63,922 nt of DNA from Clostridia bacterium (GTDB lineage: Bacteria > Bacillota > Clostridia > Oscillospirales > CAG-272): positions 1 through 63,922 of the forward strand of contig JAFUNF010000025.1 in the NCBI GenBank assembly GCA_017473085.1, read 5' to 3'. The position numbers were made by a program, and so were the translations under genes. The notes under the pieces are model-generated. The model had not been told where the DNA came from. It searched no databases and saw nothing but the letters and a program-made list of their open reading frames with translations. This document shows positions 27,891-63,803 of this stretch, in pieces. The stretch's first letter is position 1. Each line of letters opens with the position of its first letter.

Positions 27891-28943
27891 ATGAAAAAGT
27901 ACATCTTGCCAGAGGACGTAAACTGGTATCGTGCTAATATGCACTGCCACTCTACTGTATCCGATGGCTCACTCACTCCAGAGGAAATCAAGAAGGAATA
28001 TAAGGCTCAAGGCTACTCTATTGTTGCCTATACTGACCACGAAATACTGCTTGACCACTCCGACCTTGACGATGAGGATTTTTTAACTCTTACAAGCTCT
28101 GAATACTCTATTACAGAGACTCAGGCATCAGTGCCAAGTGCAACAGGGTCTAAAGGAAATAATCCTTGGTCAAGAAAGAAAACAGTTCATATGTGTATCT
28201 ACTCTAAGGACCAGCACAACGTATTTCAGCCTGCTGCTGACGACGATAGCTTCAGATGGGTACAGGGTGGTATTCACGTAGGCAGAAACAAGTGCGACGG
28301 CTACAAGAGAGTATACACTAAGGAAAGCATTAACGAAACTATCAAAAGATGTAACGAGGCAGGCTTTTTCGTTCAGTTCAACCATCCAAACTGGTCACTA
28401 AACGACAGAACTGACTACTTAGGTCTTGAAGGACTTTGGTCCTTGGAAATTCTCAACTACGCAACTGAAAGATTGACAGGTAGCGAATATTGTCCCTACA
28501 TTTACGACGATATGTTCCGCTCTGGCATGCACAATTTGTATTGCTCGATGGGTGACGATAACCACAACAGAGGAAGAAGTCTTGTTGCCTCCTTTGGTGG
28601 CTCCACCTTCTTTGGCGCTAAGGAATTGAAATACGACCAAATTGTTGAGTCTATGGAAAAGGGTAACTTCTACTGTGCAAGCGGTAAAAACCCACCAAGA
28701 ATTAAGGCTCTTTATGTAGAGGACAACATACTCAAAATTGATTGCACAGAGGCTACTGACGTTATTCTTACAGGCTATGCAAGAAACTGGAGAAATATCT
28801 CAGGCGAGGGTATTACTCACGCAGAATTTCCTTTAAAGCTTGACGACGTTTATTTCCGTATTACAGTAAGAGATATGTACGGAAACAATGCTCATACACA
28901 TTATTACCGAGTAAAGGACTTCTACGAGGAGGTACAGGAATAA
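27891..28943 (+). CDS. PHP-domain phosphoesterase-like protein, copy 1
   Basis: A 350-residue PHP-superfamily protein. Metal motifs are visible: MHCH at 17-20 with SDGSLTPEE, AYTDHE, the SSEYS region, FNHPNWS and GDDNH near residue 220. The C-terminal ~80 residues form a beta domain (ATDVILTGYARNW, VYFRITVRDMYGNNAHT). These enzymes hydrolyse phosphoesters with a trinuclear metal site; the substrate is unknown. It overlaps the next gene, its close paralog, by one base (TAATG). AAGGTTG is a modest ribosome site. Confidence 0.8.
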   Translation: MKKYILPEDVNWYRANMHCHSTVSDGSLTPEEIKKEYKAQGYSIVAYTDHEILLDHSDLDDEDFLTLTSSEYSITETQASVPSATGSKGNNPWSRKKTVHMCIYSKDQHNVFQPAADDDSFRWVQGGIHVGRNKCDGYKRVYTKESINETIKRCNEAGFFVQFNHPNWSLNDRTDYLGLEGLWSLEILNYATERLTGSEYCPYIYDDMFRSGMHNLYCSMGDDNHNRGRSLVASFGGSTFFGAKELKYDQIVESMEKGNFYCASGKNPPRIKALYVEDNILKIDCTEATDVILTGYARNWRNISGEGITHAEFPLKLDDVYFRITVRDMYGNNAHTHYYRVKDFYEEVQE

Positions 28944-29989
28944 TGAAAAAGTATATTATCTCTCCCGAATATAATTGGTACAGAGCCAATTTCCATTGTC
29001 ACACTGTTTGCTCAGACGGTGCGCTAACACCTGAGCAGGTTAAGGAGGCATACAAAAATCACGGCTACTCTATCGTTGCCTACACAGACCACGATGTTTT
29101 GCTTGACCACTCTGACCTAAACGACGAGGGCTTTATTGCTCTTACAAGCTCAGAGTATGCAGTAAACGAAGCAACTCCTAAGTTTCCTAAGATTTTCGAT
29201 ACCGAAACAAACGAGTGGGTACGCAAAAAATGTATGCACCTAAATATATTCTCAAAGGACCCACACAATACCTTTATGCCTGCTACTAATATCAATCAGC
29301 ATTGGGGCTTAAAGGAGCGTTATCCCGATACAAAATGTGACGGCTTTATAAGAGAATTTACTAAGGAAAATATCAATGAAATGATTAGACGCTGTAACGA
29401 GGCAGGCTTCCTTGTTCAGCTTAACCATCCATATTGGTCTTTAAATGAAAGAGAGGATTACATTGACCTTGAGGGACTTTGGGGTCTTGAAATTCTCAAC
29501 TACGCAACCGAGCTTGAAACAGGCTCTGAATACTGCCCTTACATTTACGATGATATGGTAAGAAATGGTATGTTTAATCTTTGCTGTACCATGGGCGACG
29601 ATAACCACAATCGTACAAGCCTAAGAGAGTCCTTTGGTGGCTCCACCTTTATTGGTGCTAAGGAGCTAAAGTACGACCAGATTATCGAGGCTATGGAAAA
29701 GGGTAACATTTACTGCGCAAGTGGCAGAGATAACCCACCACAGTTTAAGGAAATTTACGTCGAGGACAACAAAATTGTCATTGAATGCTCCCCTGTTGAA
29801 AGCGTTTACATAAACGCCTATGCACGTGCAGACCGTCATATAACCAATGAGGATGGAGGCGAGGGCATCACTCACGCAGAGTTTGCCTTAAGAGAAAGCG
29901 ACGTTTACTTCCGTATTACTATAAGAGATAAATACGGAAACAATGCACACACACGTAATTATTTCGTTAAGGACTTCCTTAACAAGTAA
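28943..29989 (+). CDS. PHP-domain phosphoesterase-like protein, copy 2
   Basis: A 348-residue paralog of the preceding gene, clearly a tandem duplicate that has diverged (FHCH, SDGALTPEQ, AYTDHD, SSEYAV, LNHPYWS, GDDNHN conserved). The metal-binding His and Asp residues are retained, so it is probably active. The differences concentrate in the loop after SSEYAVNE and in the C-terminal beta domain, consistent with a changed substrate or heterodimer formation. The TAATG junction and an upstream GAGGAGG strongly couple it to copy 1. Confidence 0.8.
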   Translation: MKKYIISPEYNWYRANFHCHTVCSDGALTPEQVKEAYKNHGYSIVAYTDHDVLLDHSDLNDEGFIALTSSEYAVNEATPKFPKIFDTETNEWVRKKCMHLNIFSKDPHNTFMPATNINQHWGLKERYPDTKCDGFIREFTKENINEMIRRCNEAGFLVQLNHPYWSLNEREDYIDLEGLWGLEILNYATELETGSEYCPYIYDDMVRNGMFNLCCTMGDDNHNRTSLRESFGGSTFIGAKELKYDQIIEAMEKGNIYCASGRDNPPQFKEIYVEDNKIVIECSPVESVYINAYARADRHITNEDGGEGITHAEFALRESDVYFRITIRDKYGNNAHTRNYFVKDFLNK

Positions 29990-34981: not shown

Positions 34982-35430
34982 AAACAAAAGACGAAGGGCA
35001 TAATGGGTGATGTTCTTAGCGGAGAATTTGATAATCTCACTAAGTGCGAGCATCGCATTTGACCAGTCAAACGCAGATTTGGGCTAAGCCCAAACCCTTA
35101 TTATGAGCAGAGCGAATAACAAGGTTCTGCATAGCAGGTTCTTATAACGACAGAAAGAGCAAACACGCAAGACTAAAACCTTGTATGTCTGCTCTTTTTC
35201 TGTTTGTGAAGTTTTCGCAAAAGCGAAAGTGAAGTTGTGCCACGCACAGTGAAGTTGCTCGCAAATGCTCGCAGTGAAGTTAAGTTTACCCAACACTTCG
35301 CCGTCAGGCGAAACTTCACTCACAAAGTGAACTTCACTATCGAAGATAACTTCACTTGCCCAAAGGGCAAACTTAGTTTTAGCGTGTTCTCCGTTAAGGA
35401 TAACACGCTAAAGCCCTTCGTCTTTTGTTT
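34982..35430. mobile_element. Hairpin-array element B
   Basis: A 449-bp intergenic element bounded by an 18-bp perfect inverted repeat (AAACAAAAGACGAAGGGC at 34982-34999, complement at 35413-35430). Inside, in order: a palindrome on GGGCTaAGCCC (35078-35094), a long hairpin with CAGAAAGAGCA arms (35151-35202), then short hairpins (TTTCGC, GTGC-cac-GCAC, TTCGCC-gtca-GGCGAA, TCAC-aaa-GTGA, TATC-gaa-GATA, TTGCCC-aaa-GGGCAA) spaced by TGAAGTT on the left and AACTTCA on the right, and a closing stem TAGCGTGTT/AACACGCTA capped TCC-gttaa-GGA. No credible gene is inside. It lies between two convergent genes. Mobile or structured-RNA nature is inferred. Confidence 0.6.
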
Positions 35431-35457
35431 TATAATTTACACTAATTTATAGGCTGA

Positions 35458-37491
35458 CTAAATCCATCTTTCAACACTAATGCCATACTTTGCAAGCACG
35501 TTAAAGTATTGAATTGGGGAGATAATGTCAAGGTAGTTAGCACGCTTAACAGCAGATCTTTTTGCGAAGTTTTCAACTGCAGTAAGTGTACGTCCGTGAA
35601 GTGTTCTTGAGGAGTCAAGACCATAACCAACGTATGGGCTATATATAAACTCTGAGGAATAAACCTCAAGCTCCTTCAAGTATGGGAATACCATACCATT
35701 TGAAAGATATACCACACGAATATCGTCTGTTACAGTTGGAGTAACTGAAACGGATACAATTGCTGCCTTCTTGTTTGTGTCGTATGATGTACCCGAGCCA
35801 ATAGTTACATATTGATTATTAACCTTAGCTTGAATTTCAAACTGCATTACATGCTTTTCTGGCTCACCAGCAGTTACAGGGTCGTTGAAGTACAATACAA
35901 CCTTTGTAATCTCGTGTGCTTCCTTAAGAGTTACACCACAGTACGTACCCTTATCAAAGTTTTCAGCAAACCATGAGAAGCTATCGTCTGATGTGTTACC
36001 ATCAATGATGTAGATAGGATCTGAAATACTTGAATATTCCATTGAGGAGGATGCATAAGCTGTGCCGTAGCAAGCAAGGTTACCTGTTGCAGTTGAAGCC
36101 TTTCTTGCAACTGTCATATAGTCAGCATAGAAAATAGTCTTGTCTGGCTTTGTGCCCTTTGTGATTTCTGCAATTATTTCATTGATAACAGGCTTTACAT
36201 CTTCGCCATTTTTCTTCGAGGATGTAAATGAAATTTTAACACCAGTAATACCAATGTCGTTTATTGCATAGGTCTTTAGCTTATCGGTATTAAGCTTATC
36301 GGTAATAACGTCAGACATTGTCTTGACTGTTTCGCCACGCTTAACAGCAACCCAGTTATTTCCCTTTTTGACACTCAAGGTGTACTCAAGGTTAATGTCA
36401 GTGTCTGTTGCGTTCATACCACCAAAGTTAAGTGATATATTAGAAATTGCATAAGCAGTATCAAAATCAATCCAAAATTCGTCAACACCACCTACATTGT
36501 TACCCTTCCAAGAGGTTGTAGTAACATTGTCGTTACCAAGACCTGGGTATCTTGCAGTAGTTGAGGATGTAGCACCAGCAAAGCCACCGAGTGCTGCGTT
36601 TGTAGAAAGCAAAGCACCCTCTGGCACGTCGAAGTCAGGCTTGTAGCCCTTTCTACCCATAATGATAACCTCATGCATTACAGGCATCTTCCACCAGTGG
36701 TCCCAAAGTGGAGACTTATCAGGGTCATAGCCTTGATCGATGTACCACTTTGCGTATCTACCATATTCAGTACATTCAATTCTAATGTTCTTTGTATTAG
36801 CCTTGAATGGAATTGGGTCGCCGTTTGAATCAAGAACAAGCTCGCCGTTTTCGTCGTACTCATAGAAAGGAATTTCAACAAAGGCATTGTTGCCACCCTG
36901 TACTGAGCTTTCTCCCTCTGGTACGTAGTAGGTCAAATCGTTGTTATAAGCAACACCAAGTGTCTTCCACTCACCATAGATAAGTGCCTTAACGGTGTAC
37001 TTAATGTTATTATGTTGATCTGTTAAGAAGCTGGTGATTTCATTCTCGCAGGTTGGACACTTAGCAGATTTACGAGTTTTACCATCTGCCTTGTATTGAA
37101 GATCTACAAGCTCCTCATTTGTGTATTCCTTCTTACATTTAACGCAGAAAGCACCGTCGACAGCATCCCACTTCTTCATATAAATAATCATGCTTTCGCC
37201 CTCATAATAGGTTGCGAACTTCATACCACAGTATTGAAGTGTGTCGTCACAAGGTCCGATCTTACGTCCTGTTGATAGTGGCTCCCACATTTGATATGAG
37301 TTCCAAAGGAAGCCGTTGTTTAGGTATTTTGAGCTACGGTCGTTGTTAAATACTGAGGAATGGTAGGTCATACCATACAACGCAATATTTTCCAACTCGC
37401 CTGTTGCTTCTCCCTCTTCGGCAACTATTTGCCAAGTGAAGCAAGGAACAAGCATAAGCACGCACAAAATTAGTGATAATGCCTTTTTCAT
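35458..37491 (-). CDS. Secreted multi-discoidin (F5/8 C-like) protein
   Basis: A 677-residue exported protein with a Sec signal (about 1-24, cleavage near VAEEG). Three beta-sandwich regions of F5/8-type C (discoidin) character follow: about 33-265, about 290-430 (TSSTTARYPGLGNDNVTTTSW, EFWIDFDTAYAISNISLNFGG) and about 465-625 (NLACYGTAYASSSME, YIIDGNTSDDSFSWF). The first is interrupted by a zinc-ribbon-like pair, FCVKCKKEY and KCPTCENEI (about residues 115-150). The C-terminal 50 residues are helical. It probably binds surface or host glycans; no catalytic motif or cell-wall anchor is seen. Confidence 0.65.
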   Translation of the reverse strand: MKKALSLILCVLMLVPCFTWQIVAEEGEATGELENIALYGMTYHSSVFNNDRSSKYLNNGFLWNSYQMWEPLSTGRKIGPCDDTLQYCGMKFATYYEGESMIIYMKKWDAVDGAFCVKCKKEYTNEELVDLQYKADGKTRKSAKCPTCENEITSFLTDQHNNIKYTVKALIYGEWKTLGVAYNNDLTYYVPEGESSVQGGNNAFVEIPFYEYDENGELVLDSNGDPIPFKANTKNIRIECTEYGRYAKWYIDQGYDPDKSPLWDHWWKMPVMHEVIIMGRKGYKPDFDVPEGALLSTNAALGGFAGATSSTTARYPGLGNDNVTTTSWKGNNVGGVDEFWIDFDTAYAISNISLNFGGMNATDTDINLEYTLSVKKGNNWVAVKRGETVKTMSDVITDKLNTDKLKTYAINDIGITGVKISFTSSKKNGEDVKPVINEIIAEITKGTKPDKTIFYADYMTVARKASTATGNLACYGTAYASSSMEYSSISDPIYIIDGNTSDDSFSWFAENFDKGTYCGVTLKEAHEITKVVLYFNDPVTAGEPEKHVMQFEIQAKVNNQYVTIGSGTSYDTNKKAAIVSVSVTPTVTDDIRVVYLSNGMVFPYLKELEVYSSEFIYSPYVGYGLDSSRTLHGRTLTAVENFAKRSAVKRANYLDIISPIQYFNVLAKYGISVERWI

Positions 37492-37630
37492 TAGTGTACT
37501 CCTTGTACTATAAATTATTTACTACTGTATTTTAACATATTATAATATAAAAAGCAAGGTGTTTTTGTAAATTTGTCACAATTAATATATTAAATGTATA
37601 ATTTTCGTGCAAATTGCATAAAACTAAAAC

Positions 37631-37694
37631 AAAGGTCCTTCTCCATTTTTCTTGCCGACCCCGTTGGGGCAGAATTTGGAAAAAGACCTTTTTT
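37631..37694 (-). terminator. Terminator after ribF
   Basis: AAAGGTC pairs with GACCTTT around a second hairpin centred on GCCGACCCCGTTGGGGC. It lies 15 nt past the ribF stop and has A/T tracts on both sides, so it may stop transcripts from both directions. The rest of 37492-37709 is AT-rich with no visible gene. Confidence 0.7.
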
Positions 37695-37709
37695 CATTGA
37701 AATACAAAA

Positions 37710-38615
37710 TTAAATAAAATAGTTCTTGGCTTTTTCTATATCAATTGCAATTTGTTTTTTCAGTTCATCTAAGGATTCAAACTTTCTTTCATTCCTTACA
37801 AATTCACGGAAAACAACCTTGATATAGGACCCATACAAAAAGCCATTATAGCCTATTATGTGAGTTTCCATATTAACAGGTGCCAAGGGATTGTCAACGG
37901 TAGGTCTGACACCTACATTAGTTATTGATGGATAGGTGTCCTCTCCTATATAGCACTCTGTAATATAAACTCCGTTTTTTGGCACAACCTTGCCCTGTGG
38001 TATAGATTGATTTATGGTAGGAAAGCCCATTTCTCTGCCAAGCTTTTTGCCATGCTCAACCCTTGCATAAATCGAATAGGGTGGCATATAGGCTTGTATT
38101 TCTCCAACCTGACCATTTTCTATCATTTTCCTTAGCTTCGTTGACGAGAGTGTTTCATTTTCAATTAAAATTCTTTCGGAAATTTCGACACTCCCTCCAA
38201 CTTTTCCAAGTAAATGCTTCAAATCCTGAGCGTTTTTAGATGCACCACTTCCAAAGCGATAATTAAAGCCACAGCAAGCACATACCACACAGAGTTGACC
38301 TACAAGAACCTTGCTTACAAAGTCCTCTCCACTCATAGTCTTCACATCCTCAAAGCTATCTAAAGCTACATAATCTATACCAAACCTCTTAAAAAGGTCA
38401 AGCTTTTCCTCGAGAGTAAGGATTTTTGCAACAGACTTGGGATTATCTAAAAAGGTATATACTACACTTTTCGCTCGTCTTTTCTTAGCCTCATAAAAAG
38501 CATTTTTAAACACCGAGGCATGACCCAAATGAAAGCCATCAAAGGTGCCTAACGCAACCACAGTATTTTCTCTTATTTCGGTAATTTGCATCGTTTTCAA
38601 GTCATAAACCTTCAT
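37710..38615 (-). CDS. ribF: Bifunctional riboflavin kinase/FAD synthetase
   Basis: It makes FMN from riboflavin and then FAD. The 301-residue protein has an N-terminal FAD synthetase nucleotidyltransferase half with GTFDGFHLGH and CACCGFNYRFG, and a C-terminal riboflavin kinase half with KLGREMGFPTINQ and the metal-coordinating MGFPT region, then NMETHIIGYNG. GGGGGTG lies 6 nt before the ATG at 38615; a GTG three codons earlier overlaps that ribosome site and is rejected. No FMN riboswitch is seen upstream. Confidence 0.93.
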   Translation of the reverse strand: MKVYDLKTMQITEIRENTVVALGTFDGFHLGHASVFKNAFYEAKKRRAKSVVYTFLDNPKSVAKILTLEEKLDLFKRFGIDYVALDSFEDVKTMSGEDFVSKVLVGQLCVVCACCGFNYRFGSGASKNAQDLKHLLGKVGGSVEISERILIENETLSSTKLRKMIENGQVGEIQAYMPPYSIYARVEHGKKLGREMGFPTINQSIPQGKVVPKNGVYITECYIGEDTYPSITNVGVRPTVDNPLAPVNMETHIIGYNGFLYGSYIKVVFREFVRNERKFESLDELKKQIAIDIEKAKNYFI

Positions 38616-38770
38616 AGCTCTCACCCCCTTGACACTCTATTTTACCACACCTTATTCCAACTTTCCATATTTTTTTATATTATTTTAGTATTTTTTCACA
38701 CAATTAGCTTTTTTTGTGCTACAATTAGATATGATACTTTACCAATATACAAAAAGCGAGGTACAAATTA

Positions 38771-40108
38771 ATGAAAGTTATGTGGATTGGACACGGAGGT
38801 CTTCTGTTCGTTTCCGGAAAAACTAAGGTAGTTATTGACCCTTATCTTTCCAATTCCCTTCGTGATACAGATGCATCCTTCAAAAGAAAGATGGGCATCA
38901 AAAAGAAGCTATTAAAAATAAAACCCGATGCTATTATTTTGACAAGCTCACATCCAGACAGATGCGACCCTAAGACTGTTACTGCTTACGTTAAGAAGAG
39001 AAAATTTCTTTTCTTCCCTATTAAGGTTAAGCATAAGGTGGATGTTTTATGCTCACAGACAGTTTTCAAGGCACATTCAAAGGCGTGGACAAAAATGAAT
39101 GCTAACCCTGTAATGTTTGGGGCTGATCTTGAGTGGAGTGTAGGAAATTTAGTAATAAAGGGAGTTTCAGCAAAGACTGACGACACCTCTGCATTCGGCT
39201 TAATCATTACCGATATTACCGATGGAAAGAAATACTACATAGCATCTAATACTCTATATTCTGACAAGCTTTTCAACAAGCTTCCCGATGACCTTTTTGC
39301 AGCATTCATTCCTGTCGGTGGCATGTTCGGCTCAATGAATATCATTGATGCAACCAGATTTGCAAGACGCTTAAATGCACAATTCAGCATACCTGTCCTT
39401 TTTGGTATGTTTGACAAAAAGCAGAAGGCTGATGATTTTGTTGTACCTGGTAGAATTATACCTAAAATTTACAAAATCATTCAGTTTACTATGTTCCCTG
39501 TCAATTCTATTTTTTCCTCAGGTCTCGATATGTTCTTTAATGAAAAGAATAAAAAGAAAATTAACCTTGACGATTTTGACGATATTGACAACATGGACGA
39601 GGACAACATAGCTCCTGATAAGGAACCCGAAAGTGTACCTGCTATTGCAGAAAATAGCGATGTACCAGAAGAAGTTCCTGTTGCTAACAATAGCGAGACT
39701 CCTGTCAGTGACGAAAATCCTGACGATAATGGCGAAGCTCCAGTTAATGAGGAAAGCCCTGACGATAATGGCGAGGCTCCTGTTAGTGACGAAATCATTG
39801 ACGATAATGGTGAGGCTCCTGTTAGCGAGGAAAACCCTGACGATAATGGCGAGGCTCCTGTTAGTGACGAAACCCCTGACGATAATGGTGAGACACCTGT
39901 TAATGAGGAAAACCCTGACGATAATGGTGAGACACCTGTTAATGAGGAAAACCCTGACGATAACGATGAGTCTCCTGTTAGCGAGGAAAACCTTGACGAT
40001 AATGGTGAAGCTCCTGTCAGTGAGGAAAACCCTGACGATAATGGCGAGGCTCCTGTCAGTGAGGAAATTCCCAACGACGTGTCTAAAATTGATACCGATG
40101 ACGAATAA
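38771..40108 (+). CDS. UlaG-like MBL-fold protein with degenerate metal site and acidic repeat tail
   Basis: A 445-residue protein. Residues 1-235 follow the UlaG/YtnP-like metallo-beta-lactamase fold (WIGHGGLLF, VIDPYLSNS, FIPVGG). The metal motif expected as T-H-x-H-x-D-H reads T58-S-S-H-P-D-R64: the first and third His are replaced by Ser59 and Arg64, so canonical two-metal catalysis is unlikely. Residues 255-305 are acidic, and 310-426 are nine 13-residue repeats of the form PVSEENPDDNGEA. Without a signal peptide it is presumably cytosolic. It could be a scaffold, or an enzyme using a different metal arrangement. Confidence 0.65.
   Translation: MKVMWIGHGGLLFVSGKTKVVIDPYLSNSLRDTDASFKRKMGIKKKLLKIKPDAIILTSSHPDRCDPKTVTAYVKKRKFLFFPIKVKHKVDVLCSQTVFKAHSKAWTKMNANPVMFGADLEWSVGNLVIKGVSAKTDDTSAFGLIITDITDGKKYYIASNTLYSDKLFNKLPDDLFAAFIPVGGMFGSMNIIDATRFARRLNAQFSIPVLFGMFDKKQKADDFVVPGRIIPKIYKIIQFTMFPVNSIFSSGLDMFFNEKNKKKINLDDFDDIDNMDEDNIAPDKEPESVPAIAENSDVPEEVPVANNSETPVSDENPDDNGEAPVNEESPDDNGEAPVSDEIIDDNGEAPVSEENPDDNGEAPVSDETPDDNGETPVNEENPDDNGETPVNEENPDDNDESPVSEENLDDNGEAPVSEENPDDNGEAPVSEEIPNDVSKIDTDDE
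39698..40048 (+). repeat. 39-bp tandem repeat encoding an acidic 13-residue unit
   Basis: Nine in-frame 39-bp units plus a partial tenth, within the tail of the UlaG-like gene. Units differ mostly at positions 1, 4-7 and 12 of the 13-residue frame (A/T/S-P-V-S/N-D/E-E-N-P-D-D-N-G-E). High identity makes slipped-strand copy-number change likely. The complementary strand stays open over the repeats only because of the repeat's codon pattern. Confidence 0.9.
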
Positions 40109-40122
40109 TTATTGACTTCAAG

Positions 40123-40153
40123 AATGCTCTGTTAAATATACGGGGCGTTTTTG
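40123..40153 (+). terminator. Terminator after the UlaG-like gene
   Basis: As RNA, AAUGCUCUG (40123-40131) pairs with CGGGGCGUU (40141-40149) using several G-U pairs and runs into a T tract. Confidence 0.55.
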
Positions 40154-40184
40154 TTTATTAATTACAATTATTTTCTGTACGTTG

Positions 40185-40213
40185 TTGATTTTACAAAAAT
40201 TTAGGTCTATAAT
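40185..40213 (+). promoter_or_regulatory. Promoter of the hydrolase-ABC exporter unit
   Basis: TTGATT (40185-40190) and TATAAT (40208-40213) with a 17-nt spacer, 28 nt before the ATG at 40241. Confidence 0.75.
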
Positions 40214-40240
40214 ATTTTATAAATGAAAGGGGGATATAAT

Positions 40241-41188
40241 ATGCCTGATTTTGTAATTACATTTATTAGTATAATTGGTGTTTTAATTGTTGGTATTCTT
40301 GCCTCGTCCCTTTATGCTTACAGGCGTGCCTTTTATTCTCCTAAAATTGAGAAAAGGAAAACAAACTCCCTTGATTTTCTTGACAAGGAAGCCTACAAAA
40401 GCGTATCCGAGCTAATGAAAACCCTTGTAGGTCAGGTTAAGGCTATTCCCTTTGAAGAGGTTACAATTGACAGCTTCGATAAAACAAGACTTTTTGCAAG
40501 GTACTATCACATGCAAGATGGTGCTCCACTCCAAATTCAATTTCATGGTTATCGTGGCTCTGCCTTTCGTGATTTTTGCGGTGGACATGCACTCGCAAGA
40601 GAGCTAAAGCACAATATTCTGTTAGTTGACCAGCGTGCTCACGGACTTAGCCATGGCAATTCAATTACCTTTGGCATCAAGGAATCTCGTGATGCCCTTG
40701 CTTGGTGCGAATATGCGACAAGGCGCTTTGGCAATATTCCAATTTTCTTAGTTGGTGTATCAATGGGTGGGTCAACTGTTATTGGAGCCTCTGCTTACCA
40801 GCTTCCCTCTAATGTTAAGGGTATTATTGCCGATTGTCCCTTCTCCTCTCCACGTGATATTATTAAAAAGGTTTGTGGCGATATGGGGCTTAATCCAACG
40901 CTTATTTATCCCTTTATTAAGTTAGGAGCTATTTTGTTTGGTCGTTTTAATCCTGATAGCTTTAGCTGTGAGAGTGCTGTGGGAAGCTCAAGCACACCTA
41001 TTTTGATTTTGCACGGAGAGAACGATAGCTTTGTTCCCTGTAAAATGAGTAACAAAATTTATGAAAAATGCAAATCTAAATGCTTTCTTTATACCTTTGA
41101 GGGTGCTGAGCATGGTCTTTCCTTTCTCGCCAACCCTGAAAAATATAAAAAAGCAGTTTATGATTTTTTAAATTATTGTTTGGAGTAA
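40241..41188 (+). CDS. Membrane-anchored alpha/beta hydrolase
   Basis: A 315-residue serine hydrolase. An N-terminal membrane segment (about 4-26) is followed by the fold: HGYRGSA (oxyanion side), VDQRAHGLSHG, nucleophile elbow GVSMGGS, a late LHGENDSFVP with the catalytic Asp, and EGAEHGLSF with the His. This resembles the YqkD/BAAT-like peptidase-esterase group. AAAGGGGG precedes the ATG at 40241; the earlier ATG at 40223 lies before that ribosome site. It ends 4 nt before the exporter gene, so the two are cotranscribed. Confidence 0.8.
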   Translation: MPDFVITFISIIGVLIVGILASSLYAYRRAFYSPKIEKRKTNSLDFLDKEAYKSVSELMKTLVGQVKAIPFEEVTIDSFDKTRLFARYYHMQDGAPLQIQFHGYRGSAFRDFCGGHALARELKHNILLVDQRAHGLSHGNSITFGIKESRDALAWCEYATRRFGNIPIFLVGVSMGGSTVIGASAYQLPSNVKGIIADCPFSSPRDIIKKVCGDMGLNPTLIYPFIKLGAILFGRFNPDSFSCESAVGSSSTPILILHGENDSFVPCKMSNKIYEKCKSKCFLYTFEGAEHGLSFLANPEKYKKAVYDFLNYCLE

Positions 41189-41192
41189 AAAA

Positions 41193-42947
41193 ATGGAAAA
41201 GAAAAAGAAGAAAAAATTTGGGCTTCTTAAAAGATTTTTGCCCTATTACAAAAAATATATTTGGATTTTAATTGCAGATTTATTCTGTGCTGCATTAACT
41301 ACTGTTTGTGAGCTAATCCTCCCTATGATAGTAAGAGAAATTACAGGCAGGGCAACAGACGACCTTGCCACCCTTACCCTTGATTTAATCCTTAAATGTG
41401 GTCTTTTTTATATTGTCCTTCGAATTATTGACACTGGCGCCAATTTCTATATGGCATCCTTTGGACATATTATGGGCACAAAGATCGAAACGGATATGCG
41501 CAGAGATTTGTTTGCTCAATATCAAAGATTGTCATTTTCTTATTATGATAACACAAAAATCGGTACGCTTATGTCAAGAATTACCAGCGACCTTTTTGAT
41601 GTAACCGAATTTGCCCACCACTGTCCCGAGGAGTATTTTATAGCTTCAATTAAATTAATTGCTTCATTTATTATTTTATGCTCTATAAACCCTTGGCTCA
41701 CTCTTATAGTTTTTGCAACTATTCCTTTTGCACTCCTTACGCTTATACCCTTTAAGCGTGCAATGAAGGAAACCTTCAGACAGAATCGTATAAAGGCAGG
41801 AGAAATCAATTCACAGGTTGAGGACAGCCTTCTTGGTATCAGAGTAGTCAAGTCCTTTGTAAATGAGGACGTAGAGCAGAAAAAATTTAACAAAGGCAAT
41901 AAGGAATATCTTTCTATCAAAAAAAGGTCCTATTATGCTATGGGTGGCTTCCACTCCTGCACTCGCCTTTTTGACGGAATTATTTACATAGTTGTAGTTG
42001 TTGCAGGCGCAGTATATCTTTTGAATGGTGGCATTTCCGCTGCCGACTATGTAGCTTACCTCTTATACGTAACAACTCTTATTGCATCTATTAGAAAAAT
42101 AGTTGAATTTACAGAGCAATTCCAACGTGGTATGACAGGAATTGAACGCTTTGATGAAATTATGTGCTTAACTCCTGAAATAATCGACAAGGAAAATGCT
42201 AAGGAGCTTAAGGACGTTTCAGGTGACATTGAGTTTAAGGACGTTTCCTTCAAATACGAATCAACAAGCGACCTTGTTCTTAAAAATATCAACATTAAAA
42301 TTAAGGCTGGAGAAAGCATTGCAATCGTTGGCCCATCAGGTGGTGGTAAAACCACTCTTTGCTCACTGATTCCCAGATTCTACGAAATATCAGATGGCGA
42401 CATTACCATTGACGGAAGTAGCATTAGCGATTTGACAATTAAATCACTAAGAGAAAATATCGGCACTGTCCAACAGGACGTATATTTATTCTCTGGTAGT
42501 ATTAAGGAAAATATAAGATATGGTAAGCTAAATGCAACCGACGAGGAAATCGAAAAAGCATCGAGGCTTGCAGGTGCTCACGAATTTATTACAAATCTTC
42601 CTGACGGCTATGATACTTACGTAGGAGAGCGTGGTGTTAAGCTATCAGGTGGACAAAAGCAAAGAATTTCAATCGCTCGACTTTTCCTTAAGAATCCACC
42701 TATTCTTATTCTTGACGAGGCTACCTCAAGCCTTGACAACGAAAGTGAATATATCGTTCAAAAATCCTTAGAAACTCTTGCTAAGGGCAGAACAACTCTT
42801 ACAATTGCCCACAGACTTACAACTATCAAAAATGCGGACAGAATTTTAGTGCTGACCGAAAGCGGAATTGAGGAAGAAGGCACTCACGAGGAGCTAATTG
42901 CCAAAAACGGAGTTTATACCGAGCTTTATAAGCTATACTCTAACTAA
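41193..42947 (+). CDS. ABC exporter half-transporter (MsbA/LmrA type)
   Basis: A 584-residue fused permease-ATPase. Six membrane spans cover about 15-330; the NBD has Walker A GPSGGGKTT, Q-loop TVQQDVYLFSG, signature LSGGQKQR, Walker B ILILDEATSSLD and H-loop IAHRLTT. It works as a homodimer or as half of a heterodimer; the consensus ATP sites are intact, which favours a homodimer. Drug or lipid export is usual for the family, but the substrate is unknown. GGAG lies before the ATG. The gene runs into the left inverted repeat of element C. Confidence 0.92.
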   Translation: MEKKKKKKFGLLKRFLPYYKKYIWILIADLFCAALTTVCELILPMIVREITGRATDDLATLTLDLILKCGLFYIVLRIIDTGANFYMASFGHIMGTKIETDMRRDLFAQYQRLSFSYYDNTKIGTLMSRITSDLFDVTEFAHHCPEEYFIASIKLIASFIILCSINPWLTLIVFATIPFALLTLIPFKRAMKETFRQNRIKAGEINSQVEDSLLGIRVVKSFVNEDVEQKKFNKGNKEYLSIKKRSYYAMGGFHSCTRLFDGIIYIVVVVAGAVYLLNGGISAADYVAYLLYVTTLIASIRKIVEFTEQFQRGMTGIERFDEIMCLTPEIIDKENAKELKDVSGDIEFKDVSFKYESTSDLVLKNINIKIKAGESIAIVGPSGGGKTTLCSLIPRFYEISDGDITIDGSSISDLTIKSLRENIGTVQQDVYLFSGSIKENIRYGKLNATDEEIEKASRLAGAHEFITNLPDGYDTYVGERGVKLSGGQKQRISIARLFLKNPPILILDEATSSLDNESEYIVQKSLETLAKGRTTLTIAHRLTTIKNADRILVLTESGIEEEGTHEELIAKNGVYTELYKLYSN

Positions 42948-43407
42948 AAAATCAAGGACGAAATAGGATTCGGCTCTTAGTGGAGAATTCATACTTTAGA
43001 TAATAGTGCAAACATCGCATTTGTCCAGATAATTCAAATGGGCTAAGCCCAAACCTATATTACAAGCAGAAAGAGCAAACACGCAAGTCGAAAAATCTTG
43101 TATGTTTGCTCTTTTTCTGTTGGTGAAGTTTTTGCTAACGCAAAAGTGAAGTTGTACAATGTACAGTGAAGTAGCTCGCAAATGCTCGCAGTGAAGTTAA
43201 GTTTGCCCAAAGTTGCTTTGCAACTTTTCCACTTCTGCCGTCAGGCGAAACTTCACTCACGAAGTGAACTTCACTATGGTCGGGGTTTCCCGAAGCGAGC
43301 AAAGTCGAGCTTTGGGGGTTCTCGGAGATAACTTCACTTGCCCATAGGCAAACTTAGTTAGCGTGATTTGTCCGTTAAGGACATCACGCTATTCGTCCTT
43401 GATTTTT
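42947..43407. mobile_element. Hairpin-array element C (abuts GIY-YIG gene)
   Basis: A 461-bp relative of element B with a different 16-bp perfect terminal inverted repeat (AAAAATCAAGGACGAA, 42947-42962, with 43392-43407). Shared parts: CTTAG(T)GGAGAATT, GGGCTAAGCCCAAACC, the CAGAAAGAGCAAACA hairpin, TGAAGTT/AACTTCA-spaced stems, GCCGTCAGGC, and the closing TAGCGTGAT/ATCACGCTA stem with loop GTTAA. It differs by an added AAAGTTGC-ttt-GCAACTTT stem (near 43210) and a 50-nt insertion splitting the TAT/GATA stem (43274-43328). The right end overlaps the stop codon of the GIY-YIG gene. No gene lies inside. Confidence 0.6.
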
Positions 43408-63781: not shown

Positions 63782-63803
63782 TCAATACCATTAAGTTAAG
63801 AAA
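63782..63803 (+). repeat. 3'-UTR repeat, copy 2 (inverted relative to 121-142)
   Basis: Perfect 22-bp match, opposite orientation, to 121-142. Here it lies after the YihY-family stop codon, just past the palindrome GAGCTAAGCTC and before the terminator at 63823. Confidence 0.7.

Follow-up and report, generated by a model that had tools for sequence, protein, structure and literature searches.

Two related, non-coding arrays of hairpins, elements B and C, lie in a 63,922-nucleotide (nt) stretch of a Clostridia bacterium (the window; contig 25 of the 1.7-Mb draft genome G000, 87% complete), and each is closed by an inverted repeat that pairs perfectly within the copy and differs between the copies. 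These outer repeats are the two arms of an intrinsic terminator that the host already possessed, with the element lying in its loop. B and C are minimal, non-coding members of a mobile element family, the smallest form that it takes, and not an RNA gene. We consider it likely that they are minimal copies of a family whose full-length members encode RAYT, a REP-associated Y1/HUH tyrosine transposase, usually together with a passenger gene, and that RAYT joins the element into the loop of a terminator hairpin.

The origin of the outer repeats is seen at empty sites in the closest relative, G005, whose neighbouring genes are 84-86% identical in DNA. At site C (locus L096 of G005) the ABC transporter gene ends in a plain, unsplit terminator with the same stem, ATCAAGGAC-TGTGAG-GTCCTTGAT. 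At site B (L245) the stem is also the same and unsplit, AAAGACGAAGG-CTTTGA-CCTTCGTCTTT; the hairpin there was read as GACGAAGG-CTTTGA-CCTTCGTC, and the DNA beyond it matches the window. Because these empty sites hold the same stems, the outer stem predates the element at both B and C. A third copy in the genome (C24) is missing in G005 and G026, and the terminator at that place has a different stem. A first-pass annotation of the window had placed B and C, with perfect outer repeats of 18 and 16 bp and inner closing stems that co-vary (TAGCGTGTT/AACACGCTA in B and TAGCGTGAT/ATCACGCTA in C, with a GTTAA loop in both), and all of this is exact in the sequence. It had ascribed the copy-specific termini either to selection on structure or to an unusual mobility mode, and had suggested a search for empty sites in relatives. 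The second explanation is supported. The first is not, the arms being pre-existing host terminators, as the empty sites in G005 show.

Among copies in this genome and its relatives the usual layout is an A-rich run, a GC-rich stem, the element, the stem reversed and a T-rich run, the stem being specific to each site. We compared this layout with a swapped control, in which left and right flanks were taken from different copies. Of 77 loci, 67 had the signature and 37 had both ends; 36 were used after L045, whose left-end match looked spurious, had been removed by hand. The best perfect arm reached at least 10 bp in 22 of these 36 copies, compared with 4.0% of 1260 flank-swapped pairs, in which the largest arm was 14 bp. 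A second collection, genome_contigs, gave 116 matches, of which 83 had flanks and distinct right ends; an arm of at least 11 bp lay upstream of 36 of the 83 right ends and of 2 of 83 after swapping. The two sets overlap and are not independent, and the 79 elements that were compared become 76 once shared right flanks are removed.

The distance from the stem to the core end motif has a median of 9 nt (56 elements); if about 6 of these are taken as the conserved end, a loop of about 3 nt remains between the stem and the element ends, which places the insertion in the loop or close beside it. Among 148 native terminators of this DNA the commonest loop length is 4 nt (75), in a sizing that is biased to short loops by the search order. 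About 3 nt of target loop seem to be left per site; an outgroup sharing the stem exists for two sites only, and its loop is a different one. Comparison of copies by eye showed no regular target-site duplication. The first-pass annotation had named conserved terminal repeats with target-site duplications as the mark of an ordinary miniature inverted-repeat transposable element (MITE). The real ends of the elements are indeed conserved among copies (GGGTGATGTTCTTAGCGGAG on the left and the hairpin AGCGTGATACTCCGTTAAGAGTATCACGCT on the right), but the regular duplication is missing; the likeness to an ordinary MITE thus extends to short length, absence of coding capacity and conserved, imperfect terminal inverted repeats.

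The elements are found almost only where genes end. Counting as gene ends stop-to-stop frames of at least 80 codons, around elements with enough flank, we found that 51 of 73 elements lie between convergent gene ends, a gene end points into 8 and 13 of them from one side only and into a single element from neither, so that 72 of the 73 have at least one gene ending into them; the count is partly conditioned, the genome_contigs copies having been preselected for arms of at least 10 bp. Of 1520 positions drawn at random from these loci, 11.5% were convergent, 48.2% had at least one gene end and 51.8% had none. Near-confinement to gene ends, often convergent ones, and a terminator-like inner hairpin would also suit domesticated elements, retained because they improve bidirectional termination or the 3' ends of mRNAs. 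We think this quite unlikely, since close relatives lack the element at all three sites checked and target choice alone accounts for the position. In addition, the inner hairpins of B and C were not called by an automatic terminator scan, which takes loops of 3-8 nt only, a limit that their loop exceeds.

From 5' to 3' the family anatomy consists of the left end GGGTGATGTTCTTAGCGGAG, an inverted-repeat module, an inner hairpin followed by a T-run, an array of small hairpins and the right-end hairpin AGCGTGATACTCCGTTAAGAGTATCACGCT; the coordinates in the window are given in Table 1. By eye, the left end repeats the right end imperfectly in inverted orientation. A candidate pseudoknot between 5' CTTAGCGGAGA and the right-end loop was rejected; the complementarity is real, but is due to these imperfect terminal inverted repeats. 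The modules of B and C are collinear (119 nt at 89% and 41 nt at 98% identity), in agreement with the shared module order that had been described for them. Elements of the family have a median length of 359 nt and lie in either orientation relative to the neighbouring gene.

Table 1. Positions of elements B and C and of the host terminator arms around them, in window coordinates.
Feature	Position	Strand	Description
Left arm, host terminator split by B	34982..34999	+	AAACAAAAGACGAAGGGC; 18 bp, pairs perfectly with right arm
Element B, inserted DNA	35000..35412	+	Absent from G005
B 5' module	35000..35150	+	Left end GGGTGATGTTCTTAGCGGAG and inverted repeats, which share homology with the tail that follows RAYT genes
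B inner hairpin	35151..35205	+	CAGAAAGAGCAAACA...TGTCTGCTCTTTTTCTG; terminator-like by eye
B array of short hairpins	35206..35379	+	Separator word GTGAAGTT / AACTTCAC, 4 + 3 exact copies
B right-end hairpin	35380..35410	+	TAGCGTGTTCTCCGTTAAGGATAACACGCTA
Right arm, host terminator split by B	35413..35430	+	18 bp, pairs with 34982-34999
Left arm, host terminator split by C	42947..42962	+	AAAAATCAAGGACGAA; 16 bp, perfect; begins with the final base of the ABC transporter stop codon
Element C, inserted DNA	42963..43391	+	Absent from G005
C inner hairpin	43067..43121	+	CAGAAAGAGCAAACACG...GTTTGCTCTTTTTCTGTT; terminator-like by eye
C array	43122..43358	+	GTGAAGTT / AACTTCAC words and inserted GGGGTTTCCCG..GGGGGTTC module
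C right-end hairpin	43359..43391	+	TAGCGTGATTTGTCCGTTAAGGACATCACGCTA
Right arm, host terminator split by C	43392..43407	+	16 bp, pairs with 42947-42962

When folded as single-stranded DNA, each of the two elements is about 10 standard deviations more stable than its dinucleotide shuffles (0 of 100 shuffles in each case). Such strong predicted folding, together with some paired changes in the right-end hairpin and the terminator-like inner hairpin, is what might be expected if B and C were structured RNA genes whose outer stem is held paired by selection on RNA folding. We regard that as very improbable: the empty sites show that the outer stem is older than the element, the outer stems are unrelated from copy to copy, the elements occur in either orientation to the neighbouring gene, and no Rfam 15 family matches the window at its gathering score. 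The compensatory stem changes that the first-pass annotation had called for were sought in 16 distinct right-end hairpins, where the closing pair is AU in 9, GC in 4 and UA in 3, and were found in part. The number of cells paired, the number of cells changed on both sides and the covariation score all exceed shuffles (0 of 500 each), whereas the pairs changed on both sides (294 of 500) and the pair types (452 of 500) do not, in a test where related sequences can exceed such shuffles without any structure and where misplaced gaps in 29-nt hairpins hamper covariation. A folded hairpin recognised by a transposase would account for the paired changes as well as RNA does.

A search with short end motifs was too noisy, except that one match in G030 led to a longer element. 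Its order is terminator arm, end motif, RAYT gene, acetyltransferase gene, right end, terminator arm. The encoded RAYT has a PNHLH motif and matches NF047646 at 4.5e-18 (65.5 bits, below the 80-bit cut-off), and its sole relative in PDB up to E = 1 is the E. coli TnpA_REP, 4er8 (5.4e-8). Of 295 genomes of the order, 55 contain RAYTs like that of G030 (1e-20). We examined 31 RAYT loci, 30 of the order-wide ones and G030 itself, and found an inverted-repeat tail in 8 (scores of at least 66; all others at most 22). Seven of the 8 tailed loci have a clear promoter signature (at least 54; G230 scores 31), and in 7 of 8 a passenger gene of one of six kinds stands behind the tail. The passenger is a GNAT acetyltransferase, identical in kind, in G030 and G109 and another GNAT in G230; that of G264 is Cass2-like ('integron-associated effector binding protein', E 4e-6, 27.6 bits, cut-off 27), that of G267 is an S51 peptidase, and those of G261 and G173 are unknown genes, while no gene of 80 codons was seen behind the tail of G277. 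Terminator arms are recognisable at 5 of the 8 tailed loci and are perfect in G030 (16 bp) and G230 (14 bp). L386 owes its tail score to a neighbouring minimal element and not to its RAYT. Within the RAYT genes of L375, L157 and L215 there are REP palindromes of the GTAGGGGCG type, with the reading frame seemingly unbroken.

Shortened forms stand between these elements and B and C. Forms without RAYT that keep a passenger, the tail and the array comprise five elements of 912-1498 nt in genome_contigs and one in G004. Their passengers include GNAT, HAD, and Nudix accompanied by a 23S_rRNA_IVP protein, and no Pfam family matches those of L318 and L291. One such element, L323, seems to be composite, with a second array on its left; a long interval at L367 was set aside, as it looks like chance arm pairing across a host gene. 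The 5' module of minimal elements aligns to the reverse complement of the RAYT tail, through the stop codon. In the best such alignment (L021 with G109, score 40) none of 300 shuffles reached the score; for the module of B, shuffles reached the score in 0 of 300 against the tails of G109, G264 and G004, in 2 of 300 against G030 and in 14 of 300 against G277. The coding, cargo-bearing and minimal forms have the end motifs and the tail repeat in common, and several lie in the same type of site. Judged from these sequences, B and C seem to close a series that runs from RAYT with cargo, through cargo only, to neither.

A number of observations weigh against a family that RAYT moves into terminator loops. 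At the target, G277 (L218) and G056 (L043) have a partly duplicated terminator and not a simple split; in G264 (L216) a left arm lies beside an undamaged copy of that terminator, situated just upstream, and the right end is off the contig. The module of C aligns with the tails more weakly than that of B, with 1 to 92 of 300 shuffles reaching the score. The automatic search for perfect arms was positive in 3 of the 31 RAYT loci (G030, G230 and L239, the last of which is no cassette), compared with 8 of 302 swapped pairs; the arms of G261 are degenerate, and those of G109, G267 and G173 contain one mismatch and were read by eye with no control. The G030 RAYT has no Pfam match at 0.001. Its protein has no match at 1e-10 in G000, where contig 17 carries another RAYT (NF047646, 85.1 bits), although 12 of the 29 genomes of the genus have a match. 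Six RAYT loci of the genus that we inspected lack these ends, L392 among them having the promoter signature, and no autonomous copy was seen among the genus loci inspected. There is no significant orientation bias (8 sense-only and 13 antisense-only elements, P = 0.38), and a strong preference for the lagging strand might have given one. Finally, RAYT could itself be a passenger.

If RAYT is only a passenger, a hairpin-targeting DDE transposase of the IS1182/IS1272 type might move the elements. The imperfect terminal inverted repeats of the elements are more usual in DDE elements, and G011 contains one full-length match to DDE_Tnp_1_6. IS1272 and TnSha1 are themselves IS1182-family elements of the DDE class. 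Both are described as entering terminator hairpins, targeted by shape, without target duplication, and TnSha1 as carrying a metabolic gene (PMC4923244, PMC5678879). We nevertheless judge this explanation unlikely. DDE_Tnp_1_6 occurs in 2 of the 29 genus genomes, in one of them as a fragment, whereas element matches occur in all 29, and no DDE gene was noticed in the elements inspected. Moreover, IS1272, which has an enzyme of another class than RAYT, removes part of its target stem-loop, whereas the target here seems to keep its stems and about 3 nt of its loop.

The reading that we prefer gives RAYT the active part. RAYT would recognise the end hairpins on single-stranded DNA and would excise or copy the element as a single strand, which would then be joined into the exposed loop of a terminator hairpin, a target recognised by its shape. 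IS200/IS605 relatives of RAYT act on single-stranded DNA (PMC8266576). Single-strand, shape-guided insertion would explain why the target sequence is not conserved, why there is generally no target duplication and why no significant orientation bias is seen. The inner hairpin of the element may replace the broken terminator, so that the cost to the host would be low. On balance we favour seeing in the family a RAYT-driven gene-cassette system, in which a Y1/HUH transposase travels with a changing passenger (acetyltransferase, Nudix, HAD, S51 peptidase or Cass2-like) and enters single-stranded terminator loops guided by shape.

Several known systems share features with this family. Integron gene cassettes are single passenger genes beside a folded site, and the Cass2-like passenger of one relative recalls them; in contrast to integrons, no integrase or cassette array was seen in the loci inspected, and the insertions are scattered single ones into terminators. 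TIRtrons (TIRYT) and REPtrons, in which inverted repeats or GTAG REPs flank the RAYT gene, have a RAYT-type Y1/HUH transposase beside inverted repeats, as do the full-length members of this family, B and C being non-coding. The inverted repeats between which TIRtron RAYT-type genes lie are in some cases unrelated to each other, and the TIRtron sections of the two articles name neither terminators as sites nor passenger genes (PMC3733652, PMC6006769). Here, unlike in TIRtrons, the outer inverted repeat is the host terminator and the inner ends are conserved; by eye, neither the GTAG foot nor the GGGGWSAS motif given in PMC3733652 is at these ends, the left end being GGGTGATGTT. REPINs and BIMEs are likewise short palindromic repeats, mostly downstream of genes, for which mobilisation by RAYT is hypothesised (PMC3733652, PMC3116915). 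The elements described here are far larger, contain hairpin arrays and, by eye, lack the GTAG foot of REP and REPIN sequences, their right-end hairpin being TTAGCGTG...CACGCTA. We file the family as a new variant of RAYT-associated mobile elements, in neither the TIRtrons nor IS1272/TnSha1. In searches of open-licence literature we recognised no paper that joins RAYT, terminator loops and passengers, and the word 'terminator' has no occurrence in the main texts of PMC6006769, PMC2817692 and PMC8266576.

The arrays vary in a manner of their own. Among the 79 elements the array words are GTGAAGTT, TGATGTT, TGATATT, TTATGA and ATGAAATC, the small hairpins between them are unlike one another, and whole arrays switch word together. 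In the 69 elements with at least three words, 94% of the words are the element's own dominant word, compared with 27% at random; the word list was picked by eye, and 10 of the 79 elements have fewer than three listed words. A small GAACCCC...GGGGAACCCC module lies inside arrays (in L017, and at about 43277-43326 of the window), flanked in L017 by an ACTTCG repeat. At L022 (G000 contig 10) a GTGAAGTT array without the left end of the element stands beside an apparent gene start. L221, L229 and L333 have a second type of end, roughly TTCTCATAAGGAT / ATCCTTATGAGAA, in elements that are otherwise similar; by eye, the RAYT elements of G230 and G267 use a second end type. A lone right-end hairpin of about 30 nt lies within a terminator-like stem of 10-16 bp at L174, L179, L260 and L298; these solo hairpins, 4 of 177, are only suggestive, because flank swapping produced 4 as well at that threshold.

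Three further features of the window were noted. The 18-mer TTAACTTAATGGTATTGA occurs inverted near both contig ends (125-142 on the + strand and 63782-63799 on the - strand, with 0.01 expected) and also beside the copy in L019; it is a separate repeat family. A 39-bp tandem repeat at 39611-40116 lies in an open reading frame of 445 amino acids (38771-40108), and the encoded repeats contain DDNGEAPVS. At 27891-29989, adjacent related open reading frames of 350 and 348 amino acids form an apparent tandem duplication.

Further copies of the element lie on other contigs of the same genome. A query made from a sister copy matched all 29 genomes of the genus and 7 of 28 genomes from other genera of the family or order (some weakly), or 36 of 57 overall. 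At least 118 stretches of named genomes contain the right-end hairpin, and the 80 for which titles were listed are metagenome-assembled genomes of Clostridia, Clostridiales and Oscillospiraceae, many of them named after the gut of deer, goat, sheep or buffalo. Two matches to the element were found in viral_contigs. In three species, L072 (G025), L090 (G024) and L035 (G009) hold elements with unlike arrays and stems behind the same gene, which we take to be RarA-like, and these insertions are perhaps independent.

How RAYT chooses targets for REP-like elements, and why RAYT genes persist, are open questions. Taken with the empty sites, the full-length, cargo-bearing and minimal forms suggest a single simple rule, insertion in a terminator hairpin's loop, and this makes target choice directly testable in vitro on single-stranded hairpin substrates. 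The inverted repeats beside such elements may look unrelated between copies since they may be the target. If true, the proposed system would give gut bacteria a further route of horizontal transfer, in which gene cassettes are targeted by shape and by which genes and their parasitic non-coding derivatives would spread through gut Clostridia at nearly harmless sites.

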